The notes under the pieces are model-generated. The model was not told the DNA's origin. It did no database searches and saw only the letters and a program-made list of their open reading frames with translations. Of a stretch of 43,939 nucleotides of DNA, positions 9,258-40,781 are shown piece after piece. Source of the stretch: Alphaproteobacteria bacterium (GTDB taxonomy: Bacteria; Pseudomonadota; Alphaproteobacteria; RS24); NCBI GenBank assembly GCA_949498175.1, contig CATDDF010000080.1, positions 1 to 43,939 of the forward strand, read 5' to 3'. Position numbers and translations under genes: made by a program. Numbering within the stretch: position 1 is the first letter of the stretch; each line of letters opens with the position of its first letter.

Positions 9258-9281
9258 TCAGTCTTTTTGGAGGGTTGCGTT

Positions 9282-14420: not shown

Positions 14421-14432
14421 GCCACTCACAAA

Positions 14433-16416: not shown

Positions 16417-16823
16417 TATTGCTGCTGCAGCCAGTTGCCGATATCGGCATCCTCGCCTTCGCCACCCAGCCGCCCGTCGGCCCCGAACGACATGACATCA
16501 AAAACGCCGTTCTCGCCCGGTATTAGATAGACATAATCATTGCCCCACGGGTCTTTTGGCAGCGCCTTAATATAGCCTGGTGTCGCACCATCAGGCAGCA
16601 AAGCCTCCAGTCCGTCATCCATGCTTGGATAACGCAGATTTTCCAGTCGGAACATTTCTATCGCCTGCGCTAAAATGGCGACATCGGCGCGCGCTTTTTC
16701 ACTCATGGCGCGGTCTTGACTGGGCAGCACGTTGAGCGCGACTACCGAGGTGAGGAGCCCGATAATGACAATAACCACCATTAATTCGATGAAGGAAAAA
16801 CCGTTTTCAGCCTGTTTACGCAT
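16416..16823 (-). CDS. gspG: T2SS major pseudopilin GspG
   Basis: A 135-residue major pseudopilin that builds the periplasmic pseudopilus. The short leader MRKQAENG precedes FSFIELMVVIVIIGLL with Glu at +5. The C-terminal LPKDPWGNDYVYLIPGENG...DVMSFGADGRLGGEGEDADIGNW is the calcium-site region found in all GspG proteins. The start follows AGGGTCGG, eight bases after the gspF stop. Confidence 0.96.
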   Translation of the reverse strand: MRKQAENGFSFIELMVVIVIIGLLTSVVALNVLPSQDRAMSEKARADVAILAQAIEMFRLENLRYPSMDDGLEALLPDGATPGYIKALPKDPWGNDYVYLIPGENGVFDVMSFGADGRLGGEGEDADIGNWLQQQ

Positions 16824-16831
16824 AACCGACC

Positions 16832-18061: not shown

Positions 18062-18078
18062 GGCTGCGCGACCTTGCT

Positions 18079-19539
18079 CTATGCGCTCACGCGCGCGACG
18101 CGAAATACTTCCGCCATGCTTGTCTCGCCGGCGGCGACTAGGGCGTGGCCGCTTGCTGCCAATAATCCGCCATTGGCAAAAGCATAAGCTTCGATTTGCT
18201 GCTCGGTCGCGCCATCGGCAATCATTTGCCGCACCGTGTCGTCAACCGACAATAATTCGAATATGCCGATGCGGCCGCGATATCCGATATTTTGGCATGA
18301 TGGGCAGCCGACCGGTTTATGGCTGGCAATATCGTCGTTCTCATCCGGCACTTTGCAGTCCGGGCATAAGCGGCGCACCAGCCTTTGTGCCAGCACCAAA
18401 CGTAAGGAGGAGGATAAAAGCAACGGTTCAATGCCCATATCCATTAGTCGTGTCACGGCGGCGGCGGCGCTGTTTGTGTGTACGGTTGAGAGCACGACAT
18501 GGCCGGTCAGGCTGGCTTGCACGGCAATCTCGGCGGTCTCTTTATCGCGAATTTCACCGACCATAACGGTGTCGGGATCTTGGCGTAAAATAGATCGCAA
18601 GCCGTCGGCAAAAGTCATACCGATTTTCGGATTGACCTGTGTTTGACTGATACCGTGCAGCGCATATTCGACCGGGTCTTCTACTGTCATGATATTGCGC
18701 GAAGTATCATTCATCAGGCTCAGTGCGGAGTAGAGCGTGGTTGTTTTGCCCGATCCGGTCGGGCCGGTGACCAAAATAATGCCGTTGGGTTCGCGCAGCG
18801 CACCCTCAAACTGCGCCCGCATATCAGCCGCCATGCCCAAATCACCCAGTCCGAAAAACGCATTATCCTTGTCGAGCAAGCGCATCACCACGCGTTCGCC
18901 ATAGCGAATAGGCAGGGTAGAGACGCGCACATCGAAAACCTTGCCACCCAAAGTCAGTGACAAACGCCCATCTTGCGGCAAGCGCTTTTCGGCAATATCA
19001 AGGCGCGACATGACTTTGATGCGAGATACGAGATAGGGTGCAAGCTTTGGCGACAGCGAAGCAATTTCTTGCAACATGCCGTCAATACGCAGACGCACCA
19101 GCACATTGTTCTCAAACGGCTCCAAATGTACATCTGACGCGCCGCTCCTTACCGCTTCACTGAGCAAGCTGTTAAGCAGGCGAATGACCGGCGCATCATC
19201 ATCACCGGCGAGCAAATCGGCGGCATGCTCGACGCCTTGGACAACGGCATCGAAATCATCCTCGATACGGTCAGCATCCGCTTGCTCGCTATCTTCCTCG
19301 AAGGAACGGCGGGCATAAAGCTCCGACAGCAAATCGTCAAACTGTTCCTGGGAGACTTCTTCAATCAAGGCAATATCGTAATTGCGCGCCACTTCGACAA
19401 TCATATTGCGGTTGGCTGCGTCGCCAATATGTAGTGTTACACCCTTATCGGTTTGGCTGAGCGCAAGACCAAACTCGCGTGCAAAGCGATAAGGCAATTT
19501 TACCGCTTCGACCGAGGTCATGTTTTCAGCGGCGCTCAT
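18079..19539 (-). CDS. gspE: T2SS secretion ATPase GspE
   Basis: A 486-residue cytoplasmic hexameric ATPase that drives pseudopilus assembly. Walker A GPTGSGKTTT lies near residue 260, Walker B/Asp box around DTVMVGEIRD (about 325), and HVVLSTVHTN is the His box. A four-cysteine zinc motif (CPDC...CPSC, 16 residues between) lies in the C-terminal domain. The N-terminal part binds GspL. The ATG at 19539 overlaps the gspD stop by 14 bases, with GGCGAAGG upstream; an internal ATG at 19521 is less likely. Confidence 0.96.
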   Translation of the reverse strand: MSAAENMTSVEAVKLPYRFAREFGLALSQTDKGVTLHIGDAANRNMIVEVARNYDIALIEEVSQEQFDDLLSELYARRSFEEDSEQADADRIEDDFDAVVQGVEHAADLLAGDDDAPVIRLLNSLLSEAVRSGASDVHLEPFENNVLVRLRIDGMLQEIASLSPKLAPYLVSRIKVMSRLDIAEKRLPQDGRLSLTLGGKVFDVRVSTLPIRYGERVVMRLLDKDNAFFGLGDLGMAADMRAQFEGALREPNGIILVTGPTGSGKTTTLYSALSLMNDTSRNIMTVEDPVEYALHGISQTQVNPKIGMTFADGLRSILRQDPDTVMVGEIRDKETAEIAVQASLTGHVVLSTVHTNSAAAAVTRLMDMGIEPLLLSSSLRLVLAQRLVRRLCPDCKVPDENDDIASHKPVGCPSCQNIGYRGRIGIFELLSVDDTVRQMIADGATEQQIEAYAFANGGLLAASGHALVAAGETSMAEVFRVARVSA

Positions 19540-21445
19540 TGCCTTCGCCTCTGTTCTTAATCAGATTATCAAGGTCAATATCAGGAATGCCCTTGCCGTC
19601 GAGCCCGCGCATGGAATTATACTGGCGCATGGTGACGTTTTCGGCATCTTGCGCCGAGCGCACAATTGTCGGGCGTAAGAAAATCATCAAATTGGTTTTT
19701 TCATTGGCGCGACCCGAAGAGCGGAACAAACGACCAAGTAACGGAATGCTACCGAGCAGCGGAATACGGTCAATGGTGACGCGCTCATCCTGGCGTACCA
19801 AACCGCCAAGCACCACCACTTCGCCATTGCCGACACGCACCGTGGTTTCCATTTCGCGTTTGGAGGTAATCAATTCGGACGAGCCGCTGGCCAGCGGGCC
19901 GGTCACGGCAGAAACTTCTTGGCGGATTTTCAAACGAATATCGCCATCATCATTGATTTGCGGCTGCACATCCAATTGCACACCAACATTTTTGCGGTCA
20001 ATCGTGCGAAACGGATTGCTGTTAGCGCTGCCCAGCGCTTCGCCGGTCGTCACCGGAATTTCTTGCCCGACAATGAAGCTCGCCTTCTCATTATCAAGCG
20101 TCATAATAGATGGGGTGGAGAGAATATTACTGCTCACATCGCGTTGCAGCGCGTTCAAAATCACACCAAAGACACTGCCGTCGCTGCGTGTTGTGCCAGC
20201 CCCGACAATAAGACCGCGACTGCCGAGAAAACTGTCAATGGCGCGCGAACGCAAAAGACTACCGACCCCACCGTCGCCGTCTTCGCTGCTGCCGCCTTCG
20301 GCCAATATCGCGCCGGTGGTGGCCAAAATATCGGGCGCAGAGGTGCCGTAATTAGTCACGGTGAAGGGAATGGTCGTATCATTGCCCCCCGCCATTAAAT
20401 ATTGCACACCCAAATCGCGCGAAGCATTGTCCGACACCTCAACAATTATCGCTTCGACCAGAACTTGCGGCTGTGCTGTGTCTAACTCGTCAATAACGTC
20501 GGCGACCCATTTTTGTGTTTCGCTATCGGCATTAACAACGATCGCATTATTGGCTGTATAGGCGGATATGGTGACATCGCCTGATGCTGTGCCCTGTTGC
20601 GCTTTGGCATTGGCTAATGTTTGAAGCATGGGTAGCATATTTTCGGCTGCGGCATATTTCAACCGGTGTACGCGAATGGCACTGCCCGACAGGCTTTGCT
20701 CGTCAATCAATTGCAGCATGGGAACGTAATAGTCCAAAGCTTCGACATAGCCGCGCAGAATAAGCGTATTGCCGCCTTTCACCGGAATGGCGCGTAGGGC
20801 AAGATTGCGCTTTTCGCCATCGCCCTGCGAGCTGATTAAATCATCAAGCACACGCGACATGGTAAGCGCCGAAGTATTTTGCAAAACCAGCGTTCGGGTC
20901 TGTGTTTCATCTTTATCCAAATCGGCAATCAGCTTAGCTATCTTGCCGACATTGCCGCCGAAATCGGTGACAATGATTTTGCGTTGACCTTTCTTGAAGC
21001 TGGCACTGCTCTTCTTATTGACCAATGGCTTAACGGCATCGAAAACCATTTTCGGATCAACGAATTTAATCTCAAACACGCGTGTCACATATCCGTCGCC
21101 CGACAGAGGAGCGCTTTGACTGGCATCGCGCAGCCCTTCGTCGAGCGGAATGATTTTATAGCCGCCGGAAGCCAACGGCACGGCGGTGAAGCCATTAATT
21201 TTCAGCACGGATTTCAGAATTTCAATCAGGCTATCCCGATCAATGCGCGATTGCGAAAAAATATCGACCTTGCCGCGTACACGAGGGTCGATAATGAAAG
21301 TCAAGCCGGTGTCCAGTGCAATATCTTTGATGAACACGCGCAAATCGGCGTTTTGATAATTCAACCCGCTATCAGATTGGGCACGCGCCGAGGGTGCGGG
21401 GACAAGTGCGCAAAGCACAATAGCGAGGGCAAACAGGCGGCGCAT
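19526..21445 (-). CDS. gspD: T2SS outer-membrane secretin GspD
   Basis: A 639-residue secretin forming the outer-membrane pore. A Sec signal peptide ends around residue 22 (SARA). N0 begins with LNYQNADLRVFIKDIALDTG; repeated N1-N3 domains follow, and the secretin core contains the ILSTPSIMTLDNEKASFIVGQEIP and GVQLDVQPQINDDGDIRLKI signatures. The conserved end NEKTNLMIFLRPTIV is followed by a tail of roughly 45 residues. The start overlaps the gspC stop by one base (TAATG). The chaperone binding site cannot be recognised in the tail. Confidence 0.96.
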   Translation of the reverse strand: MRRLFALAIVLCALVPAPSARAQSDSGLNYQNADLRVFIKDIALDTGLTFIIDPRVRGKVDIFSQSRIDRDSLIEILKSVLKINGFTAVPLASGGYKIIPLDEGLRDASQSAPLSGDGYVTRVFEIKFVDPKMVFDAVKPLVNKKSSASFKKGQRKIIVTDFGGNVGKIAKLIADLDKDETQTRTLVLQNTSALTMSRVLDDLISSQGDGEKRNLALRAIPVKGGNTLILRGYVEALDYYVPMLQLIDEQSLSGSAIRVHRLKYAAAENMLPMLQTLANAKAQQGTASGDVTISAYTANNAIVVNADSETQKWVADVIDELDTAQPQVLVEAIIVEVSDNASRDLGVQYLMAGGNDTTIPFTVTNYGTSAPDILATTGAILAEGGSSEDGDGGVGSLLRSRAIDSFLGSRGLIVGAGTTRSDGSVFGVILNALQRDVSSNILSTPSIMTLDNEKASFIVGQEIPVTTGEALGSANSNPFRTIDRKNVGVQLDVQPQINDDGDIRLKIRQEVSAVTGPLASGSSELITSKREMETTVRVGNGEVVVLGGLVRQDERVTIDRIPLLGSIPLLGRLFRSSGRANEKTNLMIFLRPTIVRSAQDAENVTMRQYNSMRGLDGKGIPDIDLDNLIKNRGEGNERR

Positions 21446-22269
21446 TATTGACTCGCCACTAATGTGCGGAGTGCGGTCACGTCAAAACTGCGTGTTAGAC
21501 GTTGGTCGGCGCGGGCAATGTCGAGCGTAATGCTGGTTGCATTTTGCACTTGCGAAAATGCGCTTTCCAATCGTGCCCGCGAATTGACCGGTTTGCCGTT
21601 TATCGCACTAATAATATCGCCCGATACAAGGCCGGCGGCTTGAAGCAGGGCATCGTTTCCACTACCGCCAATGCTCACACCCGCGTCGCTGAATTGTAAA
21701 TCAAGCGCGCTGAACAGGCTTTGATCAAAAGATGTGCGCGATAGCAAGCGTCGCGTTCGGCGCTGTTTTGCATCAAATAGATAAATCGCGCCAGTTTCCT
21801 CATTTGCGATAACTTCTATACGGTCACTGAAAATACCGGTCACTCTGACACCGTTTTTTAGCCTTTCGCCGTGGCTGATCGATTGCTGGGCACCACCGTT
21901 GAGCGAAATAATGGCCGAGCCGCGCCCATTGGCCGTCGGGCGGGTGCCGAATAATTTGATTTTTGCATTGATTTCCGTCACCGCTGCGCTTTGGCTGCCA
22001 TCCAGTGTTGAAAAGAATACTTGCTCGGCAAGGCCTTTGTAATTGGCCTCGGTTGCCAATGTTTTCTGCGGGCCGGTTGGCGATATCATCGCTTGATGCG
22101 GCGGGGTGATGAATGTGAGAAAAATGGATGACGCGCTATAGGCAATCAAGGTAATCAGCCCCGCTTCCAACAAAAAGCGTGGCAGTTTTGCAAACACACT
22201 ATCGCGCAATCGCGATATCAGCGCATTGACGATCTGGCGTAAGAACTCTGTCCGTTGAGATACTGACAT
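21445..22269 (-). CDS. gspC: T2SS protein GspC with PDZ domain
   Basis: A 274-residue bitopic protein linking the inner-membrane platform to GspD. A membrane helix lies near residues 35-55, the periplasmic HR domain at about 80-165 (GVRVTGIFSDRIEVIAN segment), and a C-terminal PDZ domain at about 185-265 (LQAAGLVSGDIISAINGKPVNS). It is the first gene of the operon, with GTGGAG five bases before the ATG. The 122 bases upstream hold the promoter, but no reliable -35/-10 pair was seen. Confidence 0.9.
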   Translation of the reverse strand: MSVSQRTEFLRQIVNALISRLRDSVFAKLPRFLLEAGLITLIAYSASSIFLTFITPPHQAMISPTGPQKTLATEANYKGLAEQVFFSTLDGSQSAAVTEINAKIKLFGTRPTANGRGSAIISLNGGAQQSISHGERLKNGVRVTGIFSDRIEVIANEETGAIYLFDAKQRRTRRLLSRTSFDQSLFSALDLQFSDAGVSIGGSGNDALLQAAGLVSGDIISAINGKPVNSRARLESAFSQVQNATSITLDIARADQRLTRSFDVTALRTLVASQ

Positions 22270-28543: not shown

Positions 28544-30370
28544 ATGCAATTTACCGAACAAAAAATTACCACCGGAAAATATCTTTTCCGTTTTTTGAAA
28601 TTTCTCGCAACGCCCGGCGCAATCGGGCGCTTGAAGTCGCTTCTGACAACTCGCCCAAGCGATGAAGTGTCGATGATTGATTTCTTGGAGCGCCATGCAG
28701 TTGAACGCCCTGATGCGATAGCCGTCAAATATGAAGACCAAAAAATCAGCTGGGCTGAGTTGAACGCCAGAGCCAACCAAATGGCACATTATTTTCAGTC
28801 ACGCGGCGTGAAATATGGCGATAGCGTTGCGCTGAATATTGAAAATCGGCCGGAATTATTGGTCGCCGTATCGGCTTGTTTGAAGCTCGGCGCGATTGCA
28901 GGCATGGTCAATACGGGCCAAACCAATGAAGCGCTGGCGCATAGCTTGCGGCTTATCGAGCCGTCACTGATAGTTGTCGGTTCTGAATGTCTCGGCAATA
29001 TGGAAACGGTGAGCGATATATTGGAAGAGCAGCACGCCGATAAATTGCTTTATGTCGCCGATGCCGGACACGCCGGCCCACCTCAAAATTATCAAGATTT
29101 GATGGCTTTGGTGGCTGACCAGCCGGTCGAAAACCCTGTGCCAAGCAAAGTGCTGACGCTGGGCACGCCGATTTACTATATTTTTACTTCGGGCACGACA
29201 GGCTTGCCTAAAGCCAGTATCACCACCCATATGAAAGTGTTCCGTGCCGGTTTGCAGTTTGGCGTGAATGTGATGTCGCTCGGGCCGGATGATACATATT
29301 ATTGCGCCTTGCCGCTTTATCACTCAAATGCATTGGTTGTCGGCTTCGGCTCTTGTTTGTGCGGCGGCGCGACATTGGCCTTGCGCCGTAAGTTTTCGGC
29401 CAGTCAATTTTGGGAAGATTGCATTAAATTTGAGGCGACAGCCGCCATTTATATCGGCGAATTGCTGCGCTATTTGCTGGCTCAGCCGGAACGCGAAAGC
29501 GACCGCAGCCACAATGTGACCCGTGTTTTGGGCAATGGTTTGCGCCCCGATATTTGGATGGAATTCAAAAACCGTTTCGGCATTTCGCGTGTGCATGAAT
29601 TTTACGGCGCGTCGGAAGGCAATACGGGCTTTGTCAATATTTTCAATTTCGACAAGACGGTCGGTTGGTCGCCGCAAGTCGGCAAAGCATGGAATGTGGT
29701 TGCATATGATGTCGATGCCGATGAACCCATTCGGGGTGATGATGACTATATGAAAAAATTACCGGTTGGCGAAACGGGTCTTCTGATTATGCGTATTAAC
29801 GAGCAAAATCCGTTTGACGGTTATACCGACGCACAAGCCAGTGAAAAGAAAATCCTTCGCGATGTATTTGAGAAAGGCGATGCTTGGTTCAATTCCGGCG
29901 ATTTGGTGATCTTGCAAAAGCACGGTCACATTCAGTTCGGCGACCGCATTGGTGACACGTTCCGCTGGCAAGGTGAAAACGTCGCTACTACGGAAGTAGA
30001 AAGCGTGATTATGAAATGGCCCGAAATTGAAGACGCTGTGGTTTACGGCGTTACTGTGCCGGGCCGCGACGGGCGCTGTGGAATGTTGTATCTGACGCAA
30101 AAACAAGCCGGTGAGATTGACCTTAACGGTCTGGCCGCGCATATGCGCGAAAACCTGCCGCCTTATGCCGTGCCGCGCTTTATCCGTATCGGACAAAAGG
30201 TCGATGTTACCGGCACTTTTAAGTTTCAGAAATCGAAGTTGAAAAACGCCGCTTATAATGTCGAGGAAGTGGAAGACGATTTGTTCTTATTAGCGCGCGA
30301 TGCTGATGGCGTTGAACCGATGACAGCGGATTTGCAAGCCAAAGTGGATGAGGGCGCGATACGTCTCTAG
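28544..30370 (+). CDS. Long-chain acyl-CoA synthetase, FATP/FadD6-like
   Basis: A 608-residue adenylating enzyme of the FATP (solute-carrier-27-like) branch, activating long or very long chain acids. The P-loop is YIFTSGTTGLPKAS; FYGASEGN, NSGDLVILQKHGHIQFGDRIGDTFRWQGENVATTEVE and the C-terminal FKFQKSKLK region are characteristic. It is the last gene of the plus-strand run starting at 25512. The stop TAG overlaps the stop of the convergent ROK kinase gene, sharing a CTAG. A second acyl-CoA synthetase, of a different subfamily, lies at the left edge of the window. Confidence 0.94.
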   Translation: MQFTEQKITTGKYLFRFLKFLATPGAIGRLKSLLTTRPSDEVSMIDFLERHAVERPDAIAVKYEDQKISWAELNARANQMAHYFQSRGVKYGDSVALNIENRPELLVAVSACLKLGAIAGMVNTGQTNEALAHSLRLIEPSLIVVGSECLGNMETVSDILEEQHADKLLYVADAGHAGPPQNYQDLMALVADQPVENPVPSKVLTLGTPIYYIFTSGTTGLPKASITTHMKVFRAGLQFGVNVMSLGPDDTYYCALPLYHSNALVVGFGSCLCGGATLALRRKFSASQFWEDCIKFEATAAIYIGELLRYLLAQPERESDRSHNVTRVLGNGLRPDIWMEFKNRFGISRVHEFYGASEGNTGFVNIFNFDKTVGWSPQVGKAWNVVAYDVDADEPIRGDDDYMKKLPVGETGLLIMRINEQNPFDGYTDAQASEKKILRDVFEKGDAWFNSGDLVILQKHGHIQFGDRIGDTFRWQGENVATTEVESVIMKWPEIEDAVVYGVTVPGRDGRCGMLYLTQKQAGEIDLNGLAAHMRENLPPYAVPRFIRIGQKVDVTGTFKFQKSKLKNAAYNVEEVEDDLFLLARDADGVEPMTADLQAKVDEGAIRL

Positions 30371-31263
30371 GAATTATGGGTCGGCCATAGCCAAGCGGCG
30401 CCGCGCACACCGCTTGCATCGCCATGCTTGTTCTTCACCAGCCGCGTCTCGATGACATCTGAGAAAATATAAGCGTCCCAAATTTCGGGAATATGGGTGT
30501 AAAGCGCGTCGACATTGGACAAGCCGCCGCCCAGAACAACCACTTCGGGGTCAAGCAAATTAATGACGGCGCCCAAAGCGCGCGCCATGCGGTCGCATAA
30601 GCGTTCAAAGCTCGCTTTGGCGGCATCGCTGTCGCTGGCGATGATTTCTTCAGCTGTCAGCTTCTCGCCGGTTACGGCTTCATGGTCGCGCGCAAAACCG
30701 GAGCCGGAAATCCAGACCTCATTACAGCCATGCCGCCCGCAATAGCAGGGTGGGCCGGGCAGTTCATCGGCGCGCGGCGCAGCCAGCGGATTATGCCCCC
30801 ATTCACCGCCAATGCCGTTAACGCCATTTTGTAATTTGCCGTCAAACACCAAGCCGCCGCCGCAACCCGTGCCAACAATCACGCCGAATACGGACTGCAC
30901 GCCGGCACCTGCGCCATCAATGGCTTCGGATAGGGTAAAGCAATTGGCATCATTGGCGATGCGCACCGGTTGTGCCAATCGGCTTTCCAAGTCTTGTTGT
31001 ATGTCGCGCCCGTTTAAACTTTGTGTATTGGAATTACGCACCAAACCGGTTTTCGGCGAGAGGGATCCCGGCATACCAATGCCGACCGTTATCTCGTCTG
31101 TGCTGTGGCCACCGGCCTCAGAAACCAGTTCGGCAATCGTATCAATAATGGCTTTATAGTCGTCTGCCGGAGTCGGGCGCCGGTCGCGCCAGGCAATCTC
31201 TCCCGCATCGTCCAGCAATACGGCTTCCATTTTTGTGCCGCCAAGGTCAAGGCCGAAGCGCAT
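30367..31263 (-). CDS. ROK family sugar kinase, Mak-like
   Basis: A 298-residue cytoplasmic kinase phosphorylating a hexose with ATP. The phosphate motif LDLGGTK is at residues 5-11, the catalytic Asp105 is in NDANC, and the zinc site is His157 in EWGHNPL with Cys173, Cys175 and Cys180 in CYCGRHGC. The overall form (NDANCFTLSEA, GTGCGGG, HGDASGVRGAAWLWP) is closest to the Mak fructo/mannokinases, but such enzymes can also use glucose. It is the last gene of the glycosidase operon, coupled to the flavin monooxygenase by TGATG. It would feed the released sugar into glycolysis or Entner-Doudoroff. Confidence 0.93.
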   Translation of the reverse strand: MRFGLDLGGTKMEAVLLDDAGEIAWRDRRPTPADDYKAIIDTIAELVSEAGGHSTDEITVGIGMPGSLSPKTGLVRNSNTQSLNGRDIQQDLESRLAQPVRIANDANCFTLSEAIDGAGAGVQSVFGVIVGTGCGGGLVFDGKLQNGVNGIGGEWGHNPLAAPRADELPGPPCYCGRHGCNEVWISGSGFARDHEAVTGEKLTAEEIIASDSDAAKASFERLCDRMARALGAVINLLDPEVVVLGGGLSNVDALYTHIPEIWDAYIFSDVIETRLVKNKHGDASGVRGAAWLWPTHNS

Positions 31264-32342
31264 CAGATTTCCAAAGGCCCGTGGTCAAGCTTCGGCAGCA
31301 CATATTTACCGAACAAATCGCATTCATCTTGGTGCGGATAGCCCGATAAAATAAACGCTTCAATACCAAGCGCGCGATAGGCGTTGATTTTGGCAAGCAC
31401 TTGGTCCGGATCACCGACAATGGCTGCGCCACAGCCGGAACGGGCCCGCCCGACGCCGGTCCAGAGATTGTCTTCGACATAATCACCCGTGCCGGCGGCA
31501 TTGGCAGCGTCGCGCATTTCGGCCTGACGGCGCACGCCGTAAGAAGCGCTGTCCAAAGAGCGATTGCGGATTTCTTCACCGATATCGTCATCAAGTTTGC
31601 TGACCAGCGTGTCAGCGGCAGCGCGCGCCTCTTCTTCTGTTTCGCGCACAATCACATGCGCGCGATAGCCGAATTTCAGCGTGCGATTATAGCCGTCAGC
31701 GCGTTGGCGCATGTCTTCGAGAATATCGGCAACTTTATCCATCGTGTCGGGCCACATGAGAAACACATCAGCTTCCTGTGCCGCCACATCGCGTGCCGCA
31801 GGTGACAGGCCACCAAAGTAAAAGGGCGGGCATGTGCCGGAAACGGTCTGCATGCGCGGCGGCTCAAGGTCTAGCTGAATGTGTTCACCATCCATTTTGA
31901 CCGCCTCGCCATTGAGGAATTGCCGCAGCGCTTGCATAATCTCGCGCGTGCGTTGATAGCGCGGGCTACCATCAAGCATCTGCCCCGGCATGTCAGAAGA
32001 GATAATGTTAATGGTCAGGCGACCGCCGAGCATCCGGTCGAGCGTTGCCAATTGCCGTGCCAATTGTGGCACCCACATTTCACCGCAGCGCACGGCGACC
32101 AGCAGACGCATTTTCTCCAATAGCGGTGCAATGCCTCCGGCAAAGCTGATTGAATCCATGCCCAGCGTATAGCCTGAGGGCAGCAAAATATTATCAAAAC
32201 CGTTTTTCTCGGCTGTCAGCGCAATATCGCGGCAATGCGGCCAGCTGGCTTTCAGGCTCTGGTCTTCGACGCCGAGGAATTGATAATCATCGTCGCACAG
32301 GGCGGAGAACCAACTGATTTCGGCTTTTGGATGGTCTGTCAT
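31263..32342 (-). CDS. SsuD-like LLM-class flavin-dependent monooxygenase
   Basis: A 359-residue TIM-barrel FMNH2-dependent monooxygenase. It resembles alkanesulfonate monooxygenase SsuD throughout: Arg227 and His229 (GYRAHVIVRET), Arg301 (GVGRARSG) and Tyr335 (LSGYPH) correspond to SsuD active-site residues; the position of SsuD Cys54 is Leu60 here. SsuD-type enzymes split a C-S bond to release sulfite and an aldehyde. Lying inside an operon with a GH4 glycosidase, aldo/keto reductase and sugar kinase, it may be a sulfosugar (sulfoquinovose) monooxygenase as in the sulfo-SMO pathway. No flavin reductase gene is adjacent. The substrate is an inference; a non-sulfonate substrate remains possible. 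Confidence 0.9.
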   Translation of the reverse strand: MTDHPKAEISWFSALCDDDYQFLGVEDQSLKASWPHCRDIALTAEKNGFDNILLPSGYTLGMDSISFAGGIAPLLEKMRLLVAVRCGEMWVPQLARQLATLDRMLGGRLTINIISSDMPGQMLDGSPRYQRTREIMQALRQFLNGEAVKMDGEHIQLDLEPPRMQTVSGTCPPFYFGGLSPAARDVAAQEADVFLMWPDTMDKVADILEDMRQRADGYNRTLKFGYRAHVIVRETEEEARAAADTLVSKLDDDIGEEIRNRSLDSASYGVRRQAEMRDAANAAGTGDYVEDNLWTGVGRARSGCGAAIVGDPDQVLAKINAYRALGIEAFILSGYPHQDECDLFGKYVLPKLDHGPLEI

Positions 32343-32350
32343 TTGTATTC

Positions 32351-33265
32351 CTAAGGTAGGGGCAGGCCTTCACTGGCTTCAATCAGCGCATAGACATCTT
32401 GCCGCGTCAAGCATACAGACAAGGCTTGCGTCACCGCTTTGATGCGGTCGAGGTTTTGCGCGCCGATAATGGCAATCGGCGCGGCCGGATGAGCCAGCAC
32501 AAAAGCCAGCGCAATACCTGCGCGGTCGGTATTTTCGCGCGCCGCCAATTTATCGATTTTTGCCATTAATTCAGATTGCATATTGTCACCTGAAATAAGT
32601 TTGCCACCGGCCAAAGGCGACCAGGCGAGAAAGGCCGTGTCATTGGTCATGCAGCGATCAAGCGAGCCGTCGCGCAGCATGGTCAATGCGGCAAGCGAAT
32701 ATTCCGATTGCAGGGAGACGAGCGGGGCTTTCAGGAATTGGCGCAGCGCGTCTTCTTGCGCTTGCGTGTAATTGGAAATGCCGACCATGCCTATTTTGCC
32801 GGCTTGCACCAACCCATCAAGCGCGGCGGCCGTTTCAGCCGGATGGGCGAACATATCGGGGCGATGGATTTGATACAGGTCAATATGGTCGGTTTGCAGG
32901 CGCGTCAGCGAGGCATCGACAGCGGCGTTTAAATAATCGGCACCGGCAACATAGGGAATACCCGGAATAATGCCGCCCTTACTGGCCAACATCATGCGGT
33001 CGCGCAAGGTTTTATCGGCTGCCAGCACTTTGCCGAGTAACATCTCGCTCTCACCGAAAGCCTGACCGCCCCAATCAAGGCCGTAAACATCGGCATTGTC
33101 GATAAGGGTGAGGCCATTATCGAGTGCTGTTTCAATGCGCTGTGTTGCATCGGCGACATTATCACCGACCAAACGCCAGCAGCCGAAAGCCAGCGGGCCG
33201 ACTTGTTTGCCGCCAAGTTTGCGCGGTGCGCCATTGACCAAGTTTTCTTGTGTCCCAAAACTCAT
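32351..33265 (-). CDS. Aldo/keto reductase
   Basis: A 304-residue NAD(P)H-dependent (beta/alpha)8 reductase. The catalytic tetrad is Asp56 and Tyr61 (IDNADVYG), Lys96 (LASKGG) and His134 (YQIHRPD); ISNYTQ and IIGAQN belong to the cofactor site. The real start is the ATG at 33265, which overlaps the stop of the preceding gene by four bases (ATGA); a longer frame to 33535 is the shadow of that gene. Eight bases from the flavin monooxygenase gene, it could reduce the aldehyde made by it, e.g. 6-oxo-glucose to glucose. Other carbonyl substrates are possible. Confidence 0.93.
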   Translation of the reverse strand: MSFGTQENLVNGAPRKLGGKQVGPLAFGCWRLVGDNVADATQRIETALDNGLTLIDNADVYGLDWGGQAFGESEMLLGKVLAADKTLRDRMMLASKGGIIPGIPYVAGADYLNAAVDASLTRLQTDHIDLYQIHRPDMFAHPAETAAALDGLVQAGKIGMVGISNYTQAQEDALRQFLKAPLVSLQSEYSLAALTMLRDGSLDRCMTNDTAFLAWSPLAGGKLISGDNMQSELMAKIDKLAARENTDRAGIALAFVLAHPAAPIAIIGAQNLDRIKAVTQALSVCLTRQDVYALIEASEGLPLP

Positions 33266-34326
33266 AATCCGACCTCCGTCATGTCGACACGACGTTTTTC
33301 TGCCGCTGCCATTTGCGCCGCTACCCCCATAGCCACGGCACGATGACCGTCCAGCGCGGTTACCGGCACCGCCATATCGCCATGAATGCAAGCCAGAAAG
33401 GCTTTGTTCTGATGATAGGTTGCGCCCGAATGATAACCGGCATTCAAGATTTCGTCCGGCACATGAATATCCTCTTGCGCCACCTCCCATGTTTCGCGAT
33501 TGCCGTGTGTAACGATGTTTTGCGGCAGCAAGCATTCGACCTTTGCCCTATCGCCAATCGCCGCAAGTTCCTCGCTATGGCGCGAGCCTTCTGCAAACAT
33601 GCATAGATCGAGCATGGCACGCGCGCCATTGGCAAAATCAAACACGACATAGGCATTGTCCCAAATATCGGGGGTCTGGCCATGATATTTTTCGTCCAAA
33701 TGATTGACGTTTTGACCGCCCGAAGCGATTACGCCGGTCGGTTCACTGCCGATGATGAAGCGCATCAGATCGAAAAAATGGCAGCATTTTTCAACCAGTG
33801 TGCCGCCCGTATTGCGGTTAAAGCGGTTCCAATCGTCCACTTTCGGCAAAAACGGAAACCGATGTTCGCGAATGGCCAACATTTGAATTTGCCCGATATC
33901 CCCGCCATGCACACGCGAAATCATATTGTCGAGCGCCGGTTTGAAGCGATATTCCATGCCGACTTGGAAAATAATCCCATTATGGCCGACGCGCTGCATG
34001 ACTTTCTGCGTGTCGTCCAGATTGGTGCATAGCGGCTTTTCGCATAATATCGGCTTACCCGCTTCAAGGGCACTGTCGAGCACGTCAATATGATGAAAAT
34101 TCGGTGTCGCAATGACCAGCGCATCAGGGCCGTCATCGCCCAATAGGGTTTCAAAATCATCGGTCAGTGTCGGTGTGCCGTCCGCCATCTCCGCGGCTTT
34201 GGCCAGCATGGCCGCGTCCGTATCGGCCAGCGCCGTCACTTGCGCCCCGTCGAGCAAATTGAAATTTTGAATATGCTCTTGCCCCATCATACCGGTGCCG
34301 ATAATGCCAATGGTGATGTCGCTCAT
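33262..34326 (-). CDS. Gfo/Idh/MocA family oxidoreductase
   Basis: A 354-residue NAD(P)-dependent sugar oxidoreductase. The Rossmann motif is GIIGTGMMGQEHI and the conserved EKP is in LCEKPLC; the C-terminal region has WNRFNRNTGGTLVEKCCHFFDLM, the usual active-site helix with His. Family members oxidise a sugar hydroxyl or act as NAD-dependent glycosidases (GH109, GH179, GH188). It overlaps the AKR start by four bases and its own ATG follows the stop of the hydroxylase-like gene without a gap. In this context it may oxidise or cleave a glycoside; the exact role is not visible. Confidence 0.9.
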   Translation of the reverse strand: MSDITIGIIGTGMMGQEHIQNFNLLDGAQVTALADTDAAMLAKAAEMADGTPTLTDDFETLLGDDGPDALVIATPNFHHIDVLDSALEAGKPILCEKPLCTNLDDTQKVMQRVGHNGIIFQVGMEYRFKPALDNMISRVHGGDIGQIQMLAIREHRFPFLPKVDDWNRFNRNTGGTLVEKCCHFFDLMRFIIGSEPTGVIASGGQNVNHLDEKYHGQTPDIWDNAYVVFDFANGARAMLDLCMFAEGSRHSEELAAIGDRAKVECLLPQNIVTHGNRETWEVAQEDIHVPDEILNAGYHSGATYHQNKAFLACIHGDMAVPVTALDGHRAVAMGVAAQMAAAEKRRVDMTEVGL

Positions 34327-34956
34327 TTAACCCTCAAAACCTGACAGCTTTTTTGCTGTCGCGCTTTTTTCAACGTCGCCGGTAGTTTTCCATGTGCCAA
34401 GCATAATATCGCCCAGCCCGTTGGTGATGCCCCAATTATAATTTTCATTGTGGAAGTGGTGGCGCATATGTGCCTCGCGCAGACCGCGTCCCCAGCCGGT
34501 CAGCGGCTTATAGCTCTGGGTATGATGGGCCAAATGCACCCATTCATAAATCAGATAATAGGCCAATGAGGCGAGGAGCGGCATCAATACGTTCTCATGC
34601 GGCTGCCCGACCAACCAGACCATCAGTGCATAGCTGAGATAAAGCTGAATAAACATAATGATGATTGCGCTGATAGGCGCGAATTGCAGATCGCGTCGCT
34701 CGGGGTGCAAATGGTGGCCATGATGCAGGCGAATTTGATAATTGCGCCAAAAGCCCGGCGTGTCGGTCAGCGGGCTGTGCAATGTGTATTTATGCGTTAC
34801 CCATTCGAAAAACGGCGCGCTGGCTATCACCAGCAGCACCCATGGCCAGCTGTGCCATAGCGCCAATTCTTCAATGGCATAGGCGCAGAAAAACAGCGCG
34901 GCGAATAAAAATTGTACCGAGCCGTGGGTCACATAATTACGGAAAATATCTCGCAT
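34327..34956 (-). CDS. Fatty-acid hydroxylase / sterol desaturase family membrane protein
   Basis: A 209-residue integral membrane di-iron enzyme. The histidine clusters are HKYTLH, HHGHHLHP, HLAHH and HMRHHFHNENYNWG, as in the FA_hydroxylase superfamily. Four to five membrane segments. It would hydroxylate or desaturate an acyl chain or isoprenoid with O2. It is the second gene of the glycosidase operon, 29 bases after GH4, with its stop directly adjacent to the next ATG. Its presence among soluble sugar enzymes suggests a lipid-linked sugar as common substrate, or simple cotranscription. Confidence 0.87.
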   Translation of the reverse strand: MRDIFRNYVTHGSVQFLFAALFFCAYAIEELALWHSWPWVLLVIASAPFFEWVTHKYTLHSPLTDTPGFWRNYQIRLHHGHHLHPERRDLQFAPISAIIIMFIQLYLSYALMVWLVGQPHENVLMPLLASLAYYLIYEWVHLAHHTQSYKPLTGWGRGLREAHMRHHFHNENYNWGITNGLGDIMLGTWKTTGDVEKSATAKKLSGFEG

Positions 34957-34985
34957 TGAACTCTCCTGCCGATGACTTAGCAGAT

Positions 34986-36314
34986 TTACCTTAATTCGGG
35001 AATGGCGCCGCCATGTGCCTCCAGCAATTCATCAACCAGCGCCCAGATTTGGTCGAGGGTCAATTCAGCCGCCGTGTGCGGGTCGAGCATGGCGGCGTGA
35101 TAAACATGCTCGCGCTTGCCGCTTGTCAGCGCTTCGACGGTTAATTGCTGGACATTGATATTGGTCTGCATCAGCGCCGCAAGTTGTGGCGGCAGCGTGC
35201 CGACTTTCTGGGGCTGCAGCCCGTTACCGTCGACCAGACAGGGCACTTCGACACAGGCATTTTCGGGCAGATTGCCGATCAGGCCGTGATTGGCGACATT
35301 GCCATGAATTTTATCGCTTTTGCCAAGCGCGCAAGCGGCGATAATGCGCGCGGCATATTCGACCGATTTTTCACACACCAAGCTGTCGCCTTGTGTCAAA
35401 GCCGCTTCTTGCGCTTGCCATTCGGCTATTTGCGCTTCGCAGCGGCGCGGATATTCATCGAGCGGAATTTCATATTTATCTATTAATTCGGGGTGCCTCG
35501 CATTGATGAAATAGGGCGTGTATTCGGCGAAGTGCTCTGAGCTTTCAGTGACGAAATAGCCAAGCCTTTGCAGCATGTCATAGCGCACATGATTGGCGCA
35601 ATCTTCCCAGCCGCGACCATAGCCACGTGTTTGTGCCAGTTTTCTAAGGCGCGGGTAAAGGTCTTCCATGCGCCCGTCAGCATGGCGCTTTTCAAAGCGC
35701 GTATAAAAAGCGACGTGATTGATGCCGGCGCAATCATAATCAATGGTTTGCGGGTCTTCGCCAAGATCGCGCGCCAAATCAATCGCCGTGCCCTGCACGG
35801 AATGACACAGCCCGACATAATTCAATTGTGGCGCAAGTTTTGACAAGGCGAGGCAGTTAATCGCCATCGGATTGACATATTGCAAGAGCAGCGCATCAGG
35901 GCAGCATTCGGCCATATCATCAGCAATTTCTCTGAGCACCGGCACAGTGCGCAAGCCGCGCATAATGCCGCCAATACCGAGCGTATCGCCAATGGTTTGG
36001 CGCAGCCCGTATTTTTTCGGAATATCGAAATCAATAATGGTAGCCGGCTCATAACCGCCGACTTGAATCATGGTGATGACGAAAGTTGCATTTTGCAACG
36101 CCTCGCGCCGTTTGAGCGTGGCTGAAATTTTCGTTGTGGTATGGGTGGTTTCGGCTATGCGCTGCGCCACTTTTTCCGAGGTGGCGAGCCGTGCCGCGTC
36201 AATATCATGCAAGGCGATATGCGCGGTCTCAAGCCCCGGCTCGAGCACAATATCGGTAACGATATTCTTCATGAATACGGTGCTGCCTGCGCCGATAATG
36301 GCAATTTTGACCAC
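34986..36314 (-). CDS. GH4 family NAD+/Mn2+-dependent alpha-glycosidase
   Basis: A 442-residue cytoplasmic glycosidase of family 4, which works by oxidising C3 of the sugar and eliminating the aglycone. The NAD motif IGAGSTVFMKN is at residues 7-17, Asn148 in VNPM, the metal ligand Cys170 in GLCHSVQG and His200 in INHVAF. The CHSVQG form is that of the alpha-galactosidase/alpha-glucosidase (MelA-like) group; GH4 also includes 6-phospho and glucuronide enzymes. It is the first gene of a six-gene operon and divergent from GH3. No phosphotransferase genes are present, so an unphosphorylated substrate is likely. Confidence 0.93.
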   Translation of the reverse strand: MVKIAIIGAGSTVFMKNIVTDIVLEPGLETAHIALHDIDAARLATSEKVAQRIAETTHTTTKISATLKRREALQNATFVITMIQVGGYEPATIIDFDIPKKYGLRQTIGDTLGIGGIMRGLRTVPVLREIADDMAECCPDALLLQYVNPMAINCLALSKLAPQLNYVGLCHSVQGTAIDLARDLGEDPQTIDYDCAGINHVAFYTRFEKRHADGRMEDLYPRLRKLAQTRGYGRGWEDCANHVRYDMLQRLGYFVTESSEHFAEYTPYFINARHPELIDKYEIPLDEYPRRCEAQIAEWQAQEAALTQGDSLVCEKSVEYAARIIAACALGKSDKIHGNVANHGLIGNLPENACVEVPCLVDGNGLQPQKVGTLPPQLAALMQTNINVQQLTVEALTSGKREHVYHAAMLDPHTAAELTLDQIWALVDELLEAHGGAIPELR

Positions 36315-36402
36315 GCCTACTCCTTTGACTTGTCGCTGCCTTAACCCTTGCCTAGACTGTCATAAATGCAGTGTTTTGTGCAATGCGGTAGGGGAGTGGG
36401 CA
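36315..36402. promoter_or_regulatory. Divergent promoter region between GH4 operon and GH3
   Basis: The 88-base gap must drive both sugar transcripts. A TTGACT at 36325-36330 on the plus strand is the only -35-like element; no properly spaced -10 was found. No regulator gene lies nearby. GGGGAGTGGG before the GH3 ATG is its Shine-Dalgarno sequence. Confidence 0.45.
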
Positions 36403-38805
36403 ATGCAGCATCCATATGATTTTGAAAGCGAAGCGACCGGCTTGGTGGCGCGTATGTCGGTTGATGAAAAAGCCTCGCTCATGTCGGGTTCCAGCTTTTG
36501 GCATTTGCAGCCGCTTGAGCAATATGACCTGCCGCCGATTATGGTATCGGACGGGCCGCATGGCCTTAGAAAACAGGGTGACCAGACCGACCATATGGGC
36601 CTGACGGCCTCCGTTCCGGCGACATGTTTTCCAACCGCTGTTACACTGGCATCAAGCTGGGACAGAGAGCTTATCGGCGAAGTCGGTGCCGCCATTGGGC
36701 GCGAATGTCAGGCTGAGGGTGTATCGGTATTGCTGGCGCCGGGCGTCAATATTAAGCGCAGCCCGTTATGCGGCCGCAATTTTGAATATTATTCAGAAGA
36801 CCCGTTTATGGCAGGCGAGATGGCGGCGGCATTTATCAGTGGCGTGCAATCAACCGGCACGGGCACCAGCCTCAAACACTTCGCGGTCAATAATCAGGAA
36901 GCACAACGCATGGTTGTGGACACGCTGGTTGATCGACGGACATTGTTTGAGATTTATCTACCCGCCTTTGAAGCGGCGGTGACGCAAGCACAGCCGTGGA
37001 CGGTGATGTGTGCCTATAATCGCTTGAACGGCATTTACTGCTCTGAGCATGAAGAATTGTTAACCGGCATTTTGCGCGACCGTTGGGGCTTTAAAGGCTT
37101 GGTGGTGACCGATTGGGGTGCGGTTAATGAACGCCCGCGCGGAATCGCTGCCGGATTGGACTTGGAAATGCCGAGCAGTGGTGGCGTCAATGATCGGTTG
37201 GTTGTAGCGCAAGTGAAAGACGGCAGCTTTAATGAAGAGCATCTCAACCGCGCCGCCCGCCGCGTGACGCAGATGATATTGGCGTCGAAAAACAATGCCG
37301 CGCCGCAAGCCGTCGATTTTGACGCGCATCACGCGCTGGCCCGCAGGGCGGCGGCGGAAGGCGCAGTCTTGCTCAAAAATGATGGGCTTTTGCCGCTTAC
37401 CGATGATAAATCAGTGGCGCTTATCGGTGCTTTTGCCGACGCACCGCGCTTTCAGGGGGCGGGTTCCTCACAAGTCAATGCGGCCAAGCTCGACAAGCCG
37501 CTTGATGCTTTTGTTTCGCGATTGGGCACCGCCAATGTCACTTATGCGCAAGGCTTTGATGCCGAATTGGCGGAAGCCGATCAAGAACTGATTGCCGAAG
37601 CGGTGGCGGCCGCTCAGAAAGCCGAAATTGCCGTTATCATGGCCGGTCTGCCTCCTTTATTTGAGGCGGAAGGGTTTGACCGCACGCATTTGCGCCAGCC
37701 CGAACAAATTGAAAATCTGATTGCCGCCGTGGCCGCGGCGAATGAAAACACGGTGGTGGTGCTGTCCAATGGCGCGCCGATGGAAATGCCGTGGCTTGCA
37801 GATGCTCCCGCTGTGCTTGAAATTTATTTGGCGGGGCAGGCCGGTGCACACGCATTGGTTGATTTGCTGTATGGCGACATCAATCCGAGCGGTAAGCTGG
37901 CGGAAACCTTTCCTATGGTATTGGCTGATTGTCCGGCGCAGGAAAACTTTGCCAATCACAAGCGCCAATTGGTCTATCGCGAGGGCTTGAATATCGGCTA
38001 TCGCCATTTCACCAGCCATGATGCGCCGATGCTGTTTCCGTTCGGCCATGGCTTGAGTTACACAAAATTCACCTATAGCGATGCAGCGTTGTTGGCTGAT
38101 TGGTCAGCCGATAGCGAGACTGTGGAGGTGGCGGTGACTGTCACCAATAGCGGCGATAGGGCGGGCGCCGAAGTGGTGCAGCTTTATGTGCGCGATGTCG
38201 AAGCCACCGCCTATCGCCCCGATCGCGAATTGAAAGCATTTGAAAAAATAACGCTCGCGGCGGGGCAATCGCAGCAAGTGCGGTTTACGCTCAATAGGCG
38301 TGCTTTTGCTTATTTCGATGTCACGCAAGATGCATGGGATGTCGAGCCGGGGGCATTTGAAATTCTTTTTGGGTCTTCGTGCGTCGATATTCACCAGAAG
38401 CTGTCGGTCAATTTACCCGATGGGAGCGGTCGCAATTCTCAACCCTTGCGCGAAGCGCCTTATGTGATGATGGAAGATACGCAATTGGCCGCTTTGGGTT
38501 TGACGGTAACGCCGCCTGAAAGCATTAAGCCCTATCACGCCAATACGACGCTGGCCGATATTCGCGGCCATTGGCTCGGCAAGCGTGTGTGCGATGCGGC
38601 GCTGGAGATGGCGGCAAAAACCATGGGCAAACGGCAGGAAACGCCGGTGGCGATGAAAATGCGCGAGGAAATGATTATGTCGCTGCGCCTCAAGACCGTG
38701 CAAATCATGTCGGCCGGTGCACTTTCGCCAAAGCGCTTCGACTTGCTGCTTTTGGCCCTCAATAATCGCTGGCTGCGCTTTTTGGCGCGGCTGCTGCGCC
38801 GCTAG
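36403..38805 (+). CDS. GH3 family beta-glucosidase, cytoplasmic, with C-terminal extension
   Basis: An 800-residue glycoside hydrolase of family 3. The N-terminal barrel has PPIMVSDGPHG, GRNFEYYSEDP and the KHFAVNNQE segment; the nucleophile is Asp237 in VVTDWGAV and the acid/base Glu423 is in EAEGFDRTHL. The second domain and a fibronectin-III-like domain (about 560-650) follow. The last 135 residues or so are not part of the usual architecture. No signal peptide, so it acts on an imported glycoside. The ATG at 36403 follows GGGGAG; the frame extends to 36070 but that part overlaps the divergent GH4 gene. Its stop shares a CTAG with the convergent fusion gene. Confidence 0.92.
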   Translation: MQHPYDFESEATGLVARMSVDEKASLMSGSSFWHLQPLEQYDLPPIMVSDGPHGLRKQGDQTDHMGLTASVPATCFPTAVTLASSWDRELIGEVGAAIGRECQAEGVSVLLAPGVNIKRSPLCGRNFEYYSEDPFMAGEMAAAFISGVQSTGTGTSLKHFAVNNQEAQRMVVDTLVDRRTLFEIYLPAFEAAVTQAQPWTVMCAYNRLNGIYCSEHEELLTGILRDRWGFKGLVVTDWGAVNERPRGIAAGLDLEMPSSGGVNDRLVVAQVKDGSFNEEHLNRAARRVTQMILASKNNAAPQAVDFDAHHALARRAAAEGAVLLKNDGLLPLTDDKSVALIGAFADAPRFQGAGSSQVNAAKLDKPLDAFVSRLGTANVTYAQGFDAELAEADQELIAEAVAAAQKAEIAVIMAGLPPLFEAEGFDRTHLRQPEQIENLIAAVAAANENTVVVLSNGAPMEMPWLADAPAVLEIYLAGQAGAHALVDLLYGDINPSGKLAETFPMVLADCPAQENFANHKRQLVYREGLNIGYRHFTSHDAPMLFPFGHGLSYTKFTYSDAALLADWSADSETVEVAVTVTNSGDRAGAEVVQLYVRDVEATAYRPDRELKAFEKITLAAGQSQQVRFTLNRRAFAYFDVTQDAWDVEPGAFEILFGSSCVDIHQKLSVNLPDGSGRNSQPLREAPYVMMEDTQLAALGLTVTPPESIKPYHANTTLADIRGHWLGKRVCDAALEMAAKTMGKRQETPVAMKMREEMIMSLRLKTVQIMSAGALSPKRFDLLLLALNNRWLRFLARLLRR

Positions 38806-40781
38806 TCGCGCAAATCGAGCCAGTTAACCTGTTCCGCCGACAGGCTGATCTGCGCTGCATCAAGGCTGTCTTGTAGTTGCATCGGGTTGCGTGGGCCGAC
38901 CAAAGCACAGCATGGGAAGGGCTGGTTGACGACATAAGCAAAGGCAATTTGAATGGCGCTGACGCCCATTTCTTCCGCCAGCTGAAAAGCGCGGCGGCGG
39001 CGTTCGAGATTTTCTTCAGAGCCCCAAACGCGTTGCATTTCGTCATCAGTGGGGTCAGCCCCGTGCCGCGTTGCGGCCAGACCTTTGCCTTCCCAATCGA
39101 GGAAAAAGCCGCGTGCTTGCGCCGACCACGGCAAAAGCGGAAACTTATGAGCGCTGTGCCAGTCGCGGAAATCATCGGTCGAGCTGGCAAGGCAGCCGGG
39201 CCAGACCGGATCTTCCATGCGCGCCAGCGAGAAATTATTGCTCAATAGCGAGAAGCCTTGCAGCCCATTGGTGGCCGCATAGGCATTGGCTTCGTCGACC
39301 CGCGCAGCTGTCCAGTTTGAGCCGCCAAACAGCTTCATGCGTCCGGCATCAACCTCTCGGTTCAGCGCATCAATCCACTCCGACACCGGCACGGCAGGGT
39401 CGTCGCGGTGTAAGCAATAAAGGTCGAGATAGTCGGTTTTAAGCCGCTCGAGCGATTGGTCAAGCTGGCGCGATACGGTTTCCGGCGCGCATTCCGGCGG
39501 GTGCGCGCCTTTGCTCAGCACCACCAATTCATCGCGCACGCCGCGTGCGGCCATCCATTCGCCGAGTAGGGCTTCCGAGTGGCCGTCGGAATAAATAAAG
39601 GCGGTGTCGAAGCAATTTCCACCGCCTTCGAAAAATGCGTCACCCATCGCCGCCATGGTCGGCGCATCGATTTGATTATCCGTGCCCAACACAATTTTCG
39701 AAACCGGTTTATCGAGGCCGTCCAGCGTCACATGCGGCACGCTGCCATTGGCAACATGTTTCAGCGCGGCCCCGTGAAAGCCTGTCGCGCCCAGCACGTC
39801 GGCGGCATAACGCACGCCTCCCGCTTCGCGCCAACGGTCGAGCCAATAGGCCGTGTTTATGGAGAAGTCCGGCGTGACCAAGTCTGAGTTTTGCGCCTTG
39901 CGGGCAATCAAATCGCCGACATGATCGGCCTCAACTGCATAAAGCGGGCGCATATCATCACTTTTGTGAACCGTCTCGCTGCCGTCCTTATCGGTGATGA
40001 CAATATGATTATTTTCCGGCCCCGGATGCCAGGGCTGGTTGATTTTCAAAGTGCCGTTATCACCCTCAACGGTAATGTGCCATTCCAGTTCAGTATCTAT
40101 GGCGCAGTGCAAATGCGCCTCAAACCCGTCATAGGCCAGCACGGCCTTTGCTTCGGCGTCAGCGCCCGATGGTGCCAGCCTTGCTTCGCCGCTCAAGCCA
40201 TTGGGTTCGCCGATGAAATAGCGCGCCGCGGTGAGCGGGTAAATGCCGATATCAAGTATCCCGCCACCGGCGCGATCAATATTATAAAGCCGATGTTCCG
40301 GCGTGAAAGGAAAGGCAAAACCGAAGCTCGATGAAAAGCCGATAATTTTGCCAATCGCGCCGTCATCAATCAGACTTTTGGCCAAATGCATGCGCGGGTG
40401 CATGAGATACATGAGCGCCTCGACCAGCAGCACATTGCGCCGTGCTGCCGTGCCGTAAAGGTCAAGCACTTCGCCTTGATTGAGGCCGAGCGGCTTTTCA
40501 CACAAGGTCGGCTTGCCGGCAGCAAGGCATTTATGCGCCCACTCAATATGGCTGTCATGCGGCGTGGCGATATAAATCGCATCAATGTCATCGCGCGCAA
40601 TCAATGCGTCATAGGAATTGACGGCGTCGCCGCCATGCTTGGCGCAAAAAGCTTCAGCTTTCGCCAAATCGCGGCTTGCAGCGGCGGCCAAAACACCGCT
40701 ATGGCTGTGTTTCAAATCACTGGCGAATTGAGCGGCTATATTGCCGGTGGCGAGAATGCCCCAGCGGATTTTATCGGACAC
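38802..40781 (-). CDS. Gfo/Idh/MocA oxidoreductase-aldo/keto reductase fusion
   Basis: A single 659-residue reading frame with two complete enzymes. Residues 5-320 are a Gfo/Idh/MocA oxidoreductase (GILATGNIA Rossmann motif, CEKPLG at 94-99, DIGIYPL at 177-183). Residues 348-655 are an aldo/keto reductase with its tetrad Asp392, Tyr397, Lys424 and His458 intact. The start is a GTG at 40781 with a strong AGGAGG. Both domains use NAD(P), so they could pass a ketosugar or recycle a bound cofactor pool. The gene begins 12 bases after the CYP153 stop and converges on GH3. No break in either domain suggests decay. Substrate unknown; a two-step epimerisation or glycoside oxidation is a guess. Confidence 0.93.
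   Translation of the reverse strand: MSDKIRWGILATGNIAAQFASDLKHSHSGVLAAAASRDLAKAEAFCAKHGGDAVNSYDALIARDDIDAIYIATPHDSHIEWAHKCLAAGKPTLCEKPLGLNQGEVLDLYGTAARRNVLLVEALMYLMHPRMHLAKSLIDDGAIGKIIGFSSSFGFAFPFTPEHRLYNIDRAGGGILDIGIYPLTAARYFIGEPNGLSGEARLAPSGADAEAKAVLAYDGFEAHLHCAIDTELEWHITVEGDNGTLKINQPWHPGPENNHIVITDKDGSETVHKSDDMRPLYAVEADHVGDLIARKAQNSDLVTPDFSINTAYWLDRWREAGGVRYAADVLGATGFHGAALKHVANGSVPHVTLDGLDKPVSKIVLGTDNQIDAPTMAAMGDAFFEGGGNCFDTAFIYSDGHSEALLGEWMAARGVRDELVVLSKGAHPPECAPETVSRQLDQSLERLKTDYLDLYCLHRDDPAVPVSEWIDALNREVDAGRMKLFGGSNWTAARVDEANAYAATNGLQGFSLLSNNFSLARMEDPVWPGCLASSTDDFRDWHSAHKFPLLPWSAQARGFFLDWEGKGLAATRHGADPTDDEMQRVWGSEENLERRRRAFQLAEEMGVSAIQIAFAYVVNQPFPCCALVGPRNPMQLQDSLDAAQISLSAEQVNWLDLRD

Follow-up and report, generated by a model that had tools for sequence, protein, structure and literature searches.

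A predicted sulfoquinovose monooxygenase (sulfo-SMO) operon in a marine PS1-clade alphaproteobacterium

Plant and algal membranes contain the sulfur sugar sulfoquinovose, whose breakdown by a sulfoquinovose monooxygenase (the sulfo-SMO or sulfo-ASMO route) is known from several bacterial groups. The Agrobacterium system (SmoA-I; structures 7oh2 and 7bby) takes its sulfoquinovosidase from family GH31 and has an ABC transporter, with SmoA encoded in the same cluster. Clusters of the SquD/SquF type occur in Novosphingobium and other sphingomonads, as described by Liu et al. 2021 (cited in PMC9594981 and PMC12890257), and Kaur et al. 2023 (PMC10755693) linked the glycosidase family GH188 to sulfo-SMO clusters, nearly universally so in Roseobacter bacteria, with sulfoquinovose production put at about 10 billion tons a year. 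Here we describe a stretch of 43,939 nucleotides (the window; contig CATDDF010000080.1, C80 in our numbering) from a genome of 1.68 Mb that is 93% complete. The named close relatives are marine alphaproteobacterial genomes labelled PS1-clade or Rhodobiaceae, and the window, from an uncultured bacterium, belongs to the marine PS1 clade. On its minus strand, a block of six tightly packed genes (30367-36314), with a GH4 glycosidase gene first and a ROK kinase gene last, very probably encodes sulfo-SMO catabolism of sulfoquinovose, as judged by which genes are present, their homology and conserved active sites, their phylogenetic placement and their co-inheritance; what each enzyme does, which sugar the kinase takes, where the flavin comes from, and how uptake and the disposal of sulfite proceed are inferred.

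With the Agrobacterium pathway the locus shares the same two core steps. It resembles the sphingomonad clusters in its SmoC/SquD protein (61-70% identical), in the SmoB/SquF gene directly adjoining it, and in apparently needing no flavin reductase within the cluster. One Sphingomonas cluster, however, includes genes for a TonB receptor, an MFS protein and LacI, whereas the PS1 locus is a six-gene minus-strand operon that includes a kinase and in which no regulator was identified. The Roseobacter version (PMC10755693) likewise combines a GH188 sulfoquinovosidase with SmoC and SmoB, but on the Roseivivax plasmid these genes are accompanied by an adjacent flavin reductase, a TRAP transporter and a GntR regulator, none of which is present in the PS1 operon; the latter adds the ROK kinase, and the two SmoC proteins are just 50% identical.

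Successive genes in the block are separated by 29 bp, 0 bp, a 4-bp overlap, 8 bp and a 1-bp overlap, and a single transcript for all six is therefore likely. An earlier note, made from the letters of this DNA, had placed five of these genes correctly and described their operon-like spacing, but overlooked the sixth, an FA_hydroxylase-family gene at 34327-34956. The order hydroxylase-GH188-aldo/keto reductase-SmoC recurs in PS1-clade genomes, with each gene 61-98% identical, including an assembly of three contigs with 100% completeness (G027), so that the arrangement cannot be attributed to chance. In a single-cell PS1 assembly (L038; 63-1139 and 6655-9161), SmoC stands apart from, and is inverted relative to, the aldo/keto reductase-GH188-hydroxylase genes, a layout that may represent a rearrangement or an assembly chimera.

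The monooxygenase (31263-32342, minus strand), an LLM protein predicted to depend on FMNH2, has as its nearest solved chains 7olf (E 7e-116) and 7oh2 (E 8e-111), which we take to be the Rhizobium and Agrobacterium SmoC structures and for which the depositors' names are methanesulfonate sulfonatase and alkanesulfonate monooxygenase; in the same search MsuD and SsuD followed at E 1e-69 and E 1e-62. In a maximum-likelihood tree of 97 proteins, a check that the earlier note had proposed, it falls within an 85-row SmoC/SquD clade (support 100/100) that also takes in the two SmoC structures and the SquD-type proteins of sphingomonads and is separate from SsuD and MsuD (100/97) and from SfnG (100/100). 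Some outgroup branches of this tree are very long, which makes its root uncertain while leaving good support for the SmoC clade. Identity amounts to 68% with a Novosphingobium protein, 50-52% with the solved SmoC proteins and 36% with E. coli SsuD. The Arg227, His229, Arg301 and Tyr335 named in the note are present, as are W197 and H337; several of the residues Arg227/His229/Arg301/Tyr335/His337 are common to SsuD as well, but the signatures that distinguish SmoC (ALCxDDY, LMWP and GRARSGCGAA) occur in place of those of SsuD. By tree, solved relatives and residues, the protein is thus assigned to the SmoC/SquD type.

The Gfo/Idh/MocA protein (33262-34326, minus strand) is assigned by its nearest solved chains and its residues as a GH188 (SqgA), NAD+-dependent sulfoquinovosidase. 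Its three best solved chains are 8qc3, 8zn9 and 8qc2 (E 1e-90 to 3e-87), the last being a published GH188 structure (PMC11465081), while the best inositol dehydrogenase-like chain reached only E 2e-25; identity to SqgA is 43%. When residues are mapped in the PMC10755693 numbering, taking Arg166 as the anchor, the sulfonate triad Arg166/Leu170/Lys172 is kept as R156, L160 and K162, and the catalytic and sugar-binding residues Lys107/Tyr136/Glu189/His193/His321 are kept as K97, Y126, E179, H183 and H299. E154 aligns with a glutamate at 163/164; probably, Glu163 of PMC10755693 corresponds to glutamate 164 in this numbering and is retained as E154. With 43-52% identity to the present proteins, the solved SmoC and SqgA structures settle the matter of the pocket, for which the note had proposed a structural model, at the level of single residues. 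Beyond PS1, GH188 lies beside aldo/keto reductase-SmoC pairs in several sphingomonads, one Acidimicrobiales genome and one Roseivivax plasmid.

For the aldo/keto reductase (32351-33265, minus strand), the nearest solved chains are 7bby/7bbz (E 4e-41), presumably SmoB, deposited under the name aryl-alcohol dehydrogenase, followed by YdhF-like proteins. It keeps the tetrad D56, Y61, K96 and H134, and similar aldo/keto reductases (43-57%) adjoin SmoC in 63 of 64 loci outside PS1, all of which marks it, at the level of sequence comparison, as SmoB/SquF-like. The operon thereby holds SmoB and SmoC within 10 genes of each other, the definition of a sulfo-SMO-positive genome used in PMC13372026.

The last gene (30367-31263, minus strand) encodes a sugar kinase with a ROK domain match of 258 bits. 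It is the sole ROK protein found in its genome, at 93% completeness, and no Glk-family glucokinase was found there; the ROK kinase is therefore the likely glucokinase ending the pathway. A PGI-family gene is present. Conservation in related genomes, another check suggested by the note, adds the co-occurrence pattern: SmoC is present in 18 of 28 PS1-family genomes and GH188 and the ROK kinase in the same 18 (one GH188 occurrence being a contig-end fragment), and the other ten lack all three alike. The kinase gene of g6 genomes lies at another site, by itself, yet follows the same presence pattern as SmoC. A perfect match of this kind would arise by chance with a probability of about 8e-8 if relatedness is ignored, a figure weakened by the relatedness of the genomes and by assembly gaps. 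Neither a ROK nor a GH4 gene was seen near SmoC in any of the 64 outside loci. Because the kinase follows SmoC and GH188 in PS1 but is absent near SmoC outside it, we read it as a PS1 addition that would bring glucose into metabolism.

In six PS1 loci (L031, at 7721-8125, L030, L032, L033, L034 and L035), the gene after ROK encodes a rhodanese-domain protein. None of these loci carries GH4 where it extends that far, and the rhodanese gene is absent from the window and from the GH4-bearing loci. The rhodanese-domain protein might handle the sulfite released.

Taken together, the pathway would begin with GH188 SqgA splitting sulfoquinovosyl glycerol into sulfoquinovose and glycerol, with C3 transiently oxidised by NAD+ along the way. 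SmoC, using O2 and FMNH2 from a reductase encoded elsewhere, would then cut the C-S bond to yield sulfite and 6-oxo-glucose, SmoB would reduce the latter to glucose, and the ROK kinase would form glucose 6-phosphate for entry into central metabolism. The GH4 enzyme would probably take alpha-galactosyl units off other glycosides as an optional addition, and the hydroxylase is probably an older neighbour of uncertain role. The sulfo-SMO reading of the earlier note is upheld in these assignments, with the ROK protein as the only glucokinase candidate found.

Several observations weigh against this proposal. The kinase scores best with a fructokinase model (381 bits, under the curated cut-off of 443), and it also matches the NagK model and lies below all equivalog cut-offs. 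The aldo/keto reductase is only modestly identical to the solved SmoB. Losses inside one clade are not independent events, and some absences may be assembly gaps, as in G023, where the contig ends just past the hydroxylase. No regulator was identified by the operon and no transporter was recognised beside it in the inspected PS1 loci, a specific genome-wide transporter search not having been made. The genome was searched for a flavin reductase and a sulfite exporter, as the note had advised. None of the operon genes encodes a flavin reductase, and the one PF01613 gene, of the HpaC type, is unlinked (contig C28); nearly every PS1 genome has such a gene, whether or not SmoC is present, and it is thus not specific. 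We have therefore rejected it as a dedicated SmoA and consider it a general supplier of FMNH2 at best. Sulfoquinovose clusters lacking their own flavin reductase are known (PMC9594981). That the genome does hold a flavin reductase gene and four genes of the TauE family, to which TauE-type exporters belong, nonetheless speaks for the proposal; the four TauE-family genes lie elsewhere, none tied to the operon.

The alternative that fares best includes and extends the sulfo-SMO reading. The operon would then be part of a wider system for glycolipid head groups, with GH188 serving the head group of the sulfolipid, GH4 and GH3 taking galactosyl or glucosyl glycerols that stem from those algal or cyanobacterial membranes too, and lipid genes close by consuming the fatty acids. 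GH4 and GH3 lie at the operon's flank, PS1 genera g1 and g3 retain the divergent placing of GH3, and a long-chain acyl-CoA synthetase, which converges on the operon's end, a desaturase and the FA_hydroxylase gene are adjacent. Against it, the substrates of GH3 and GH4 are not established, GH4 is patchily distributed, GH3 lies away from the operon in g6, and the proximity of the lipid genes may be fortuitous. On balance, we regard this extended reading as unlikely. A similarly low probability attaches to its fullest form, in which PS1 sulfo-SMO would be one module of a dedicated photosynthetic-glycolipid head-group system (GH188, GH4 and GH3 stripping both galactosyl and sulfoquinovosyl glycerols) and the ROK kinase, retained solely alongside SmoC, would be the organism's one route from free glucose to glucose 6-phosphate.

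A new entry step is far less probable. The earlier note had suggested GH4 and/or the Gfo/Idh protein as the glycosidase and, on that basis, a possibly new pathway; the Gfo/Idh half of the suggestion is borne out by the retained GH188 residues, whereas the GH4 half is not. GH4 might be pictured as a sulfoquinovosidase or as an enzyme for the glycoside of a different sulfosugar, for instance a sulfofucoside, since it is the operon's first gene (34986-36314, minus strand), shares NAD-dependent chemistry with GH188 (PMC10755693), and belongs to a fold that can accommodate an anionic C6, as GH4 enzymes accepting 6-phospho sugars indicate. However, the same operon holds a GH188 whose sulfonate site is intact, and of the 18 genomes with SmoC, 11 lack GH4; it is found in just 8 of 28 PS1 genomes, closely related ones only, seven of which have SmoC. 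By its NCBIfam match (PRK15076, 638 bits, above the cut-off of 486), which accompanies Pfam matches to Glyco_hydro_4 and Glyco_hydro_4C, it falls in the alpha-galactosidase subfamily, and it carries the motifs NHVAFY and CHSV, the latter being the motif of GH4 enzymes acting on non-phosphorylated sugars. A homologue of 59% identity sits in a Sinorhizobium cluster of the tagatose/amino-sugar type. GH4 was accordingly rejected as the entry enzyme, on the grounds of the intact GH188 and its own absences, and is probably an optional accessory gene. Since GH188 and sulfo-SMO were linked in the 2023 survey (PMC10755693), the entry step of the operon is already known, and the claim of a possibly new pathway is not supported.

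That the monooxygenase is an ordinary SsuD/MsuD scavenger of alkanesulfonate or methanesulfonate, placed in a sugar operon by chance, is just as improbable: LLM enzymes are widespread and prone to misassignment, and its best NCBIfam family is indeed SsuD, the alkanesulfonate monooxygenase, but the match of 266 bits lies below the 518-bit cut-off, the gene is co-inherited with GH188, SsuA/B/C genes do not occur in the operon, and we have rejected this reading on the tree, the scores and the SmoC-type signatures.

The remaining gene of the operon (34327-34956, minus strand) encodes a 209-residue putative membrane di-iron protein with a PF04116 match of 52.9 bits and the histidine boxes HX4H and HX2HH of the Scs7/FA2H superfamily type. 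It adjoins GH188 in those PS1 loci long enough to include it, and in g1 and g3 loci without GH4 it is the first gene beside the same divergent GH3. Three g5 genomes retain the hydroxylase without the sulfosugar genes, beside DUF1214 and glyoxalase-like proteins; it was therefore dismissed as a core pathway enzyme and is probably an older neighbour whose role in the pathway is doubtful.

The operon and the GH3 glycosidase gene (36394-38805, plus strand; start set by alignment with relatives) diverge from a 79-bp intergenic region (36315-36393, no strand assigned). The divergent layout is retained in g1 and g3, which suggests a promoter region shared between the two; in g6 loci GH3 is not adjacent to the operon. 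A sigma-70-like promoter was sought within 36315-36393 and no match was obtained, and neither promoter scans nor RNA folding yielded a clear signal over shuffled sequences. Beside GH3, a fused Gfo/Idh/MocA and aldo/keto reductase protein of 659 residues (38802-40781, minus strand) is conserved across PS1 genera. Elsewhere in the window, a gene run that reads as type II secretion-like (12161-22269, minus strand; secretin, ATPase, pseudopilins) is unusual for a 1.7-Mb marine genome, and upstream of it lies a gene for a secreted-looking protein of 795 residues that has no Pfam match (9267-11654, plus strand).

The chemistry of the pathway is known; the new points are the PS1 host group and the co-inherited kinase. 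In our literature search no paper was found that joins 'PS1 clade' and 'sulfoquinovose', nor any earlier report of the pathway in PS1. The ocean groups that consume sulfoquinovose are still being catalogued, and PS1 bacteria are marine, have small genomes and have become known chiefly through genome assemblies; three of the six PS1 genera tested keep the operon. The operon predicts that these bacteria would break the sugar of algal sulfolipid down fully, to glucose and sulfite, with no C3 sulfonate excreted. The kinase co-inherited with SmoC and GH188 is a useful extra marker, and it suggests that this pathway is a main source of free glucose in PS1 cells.

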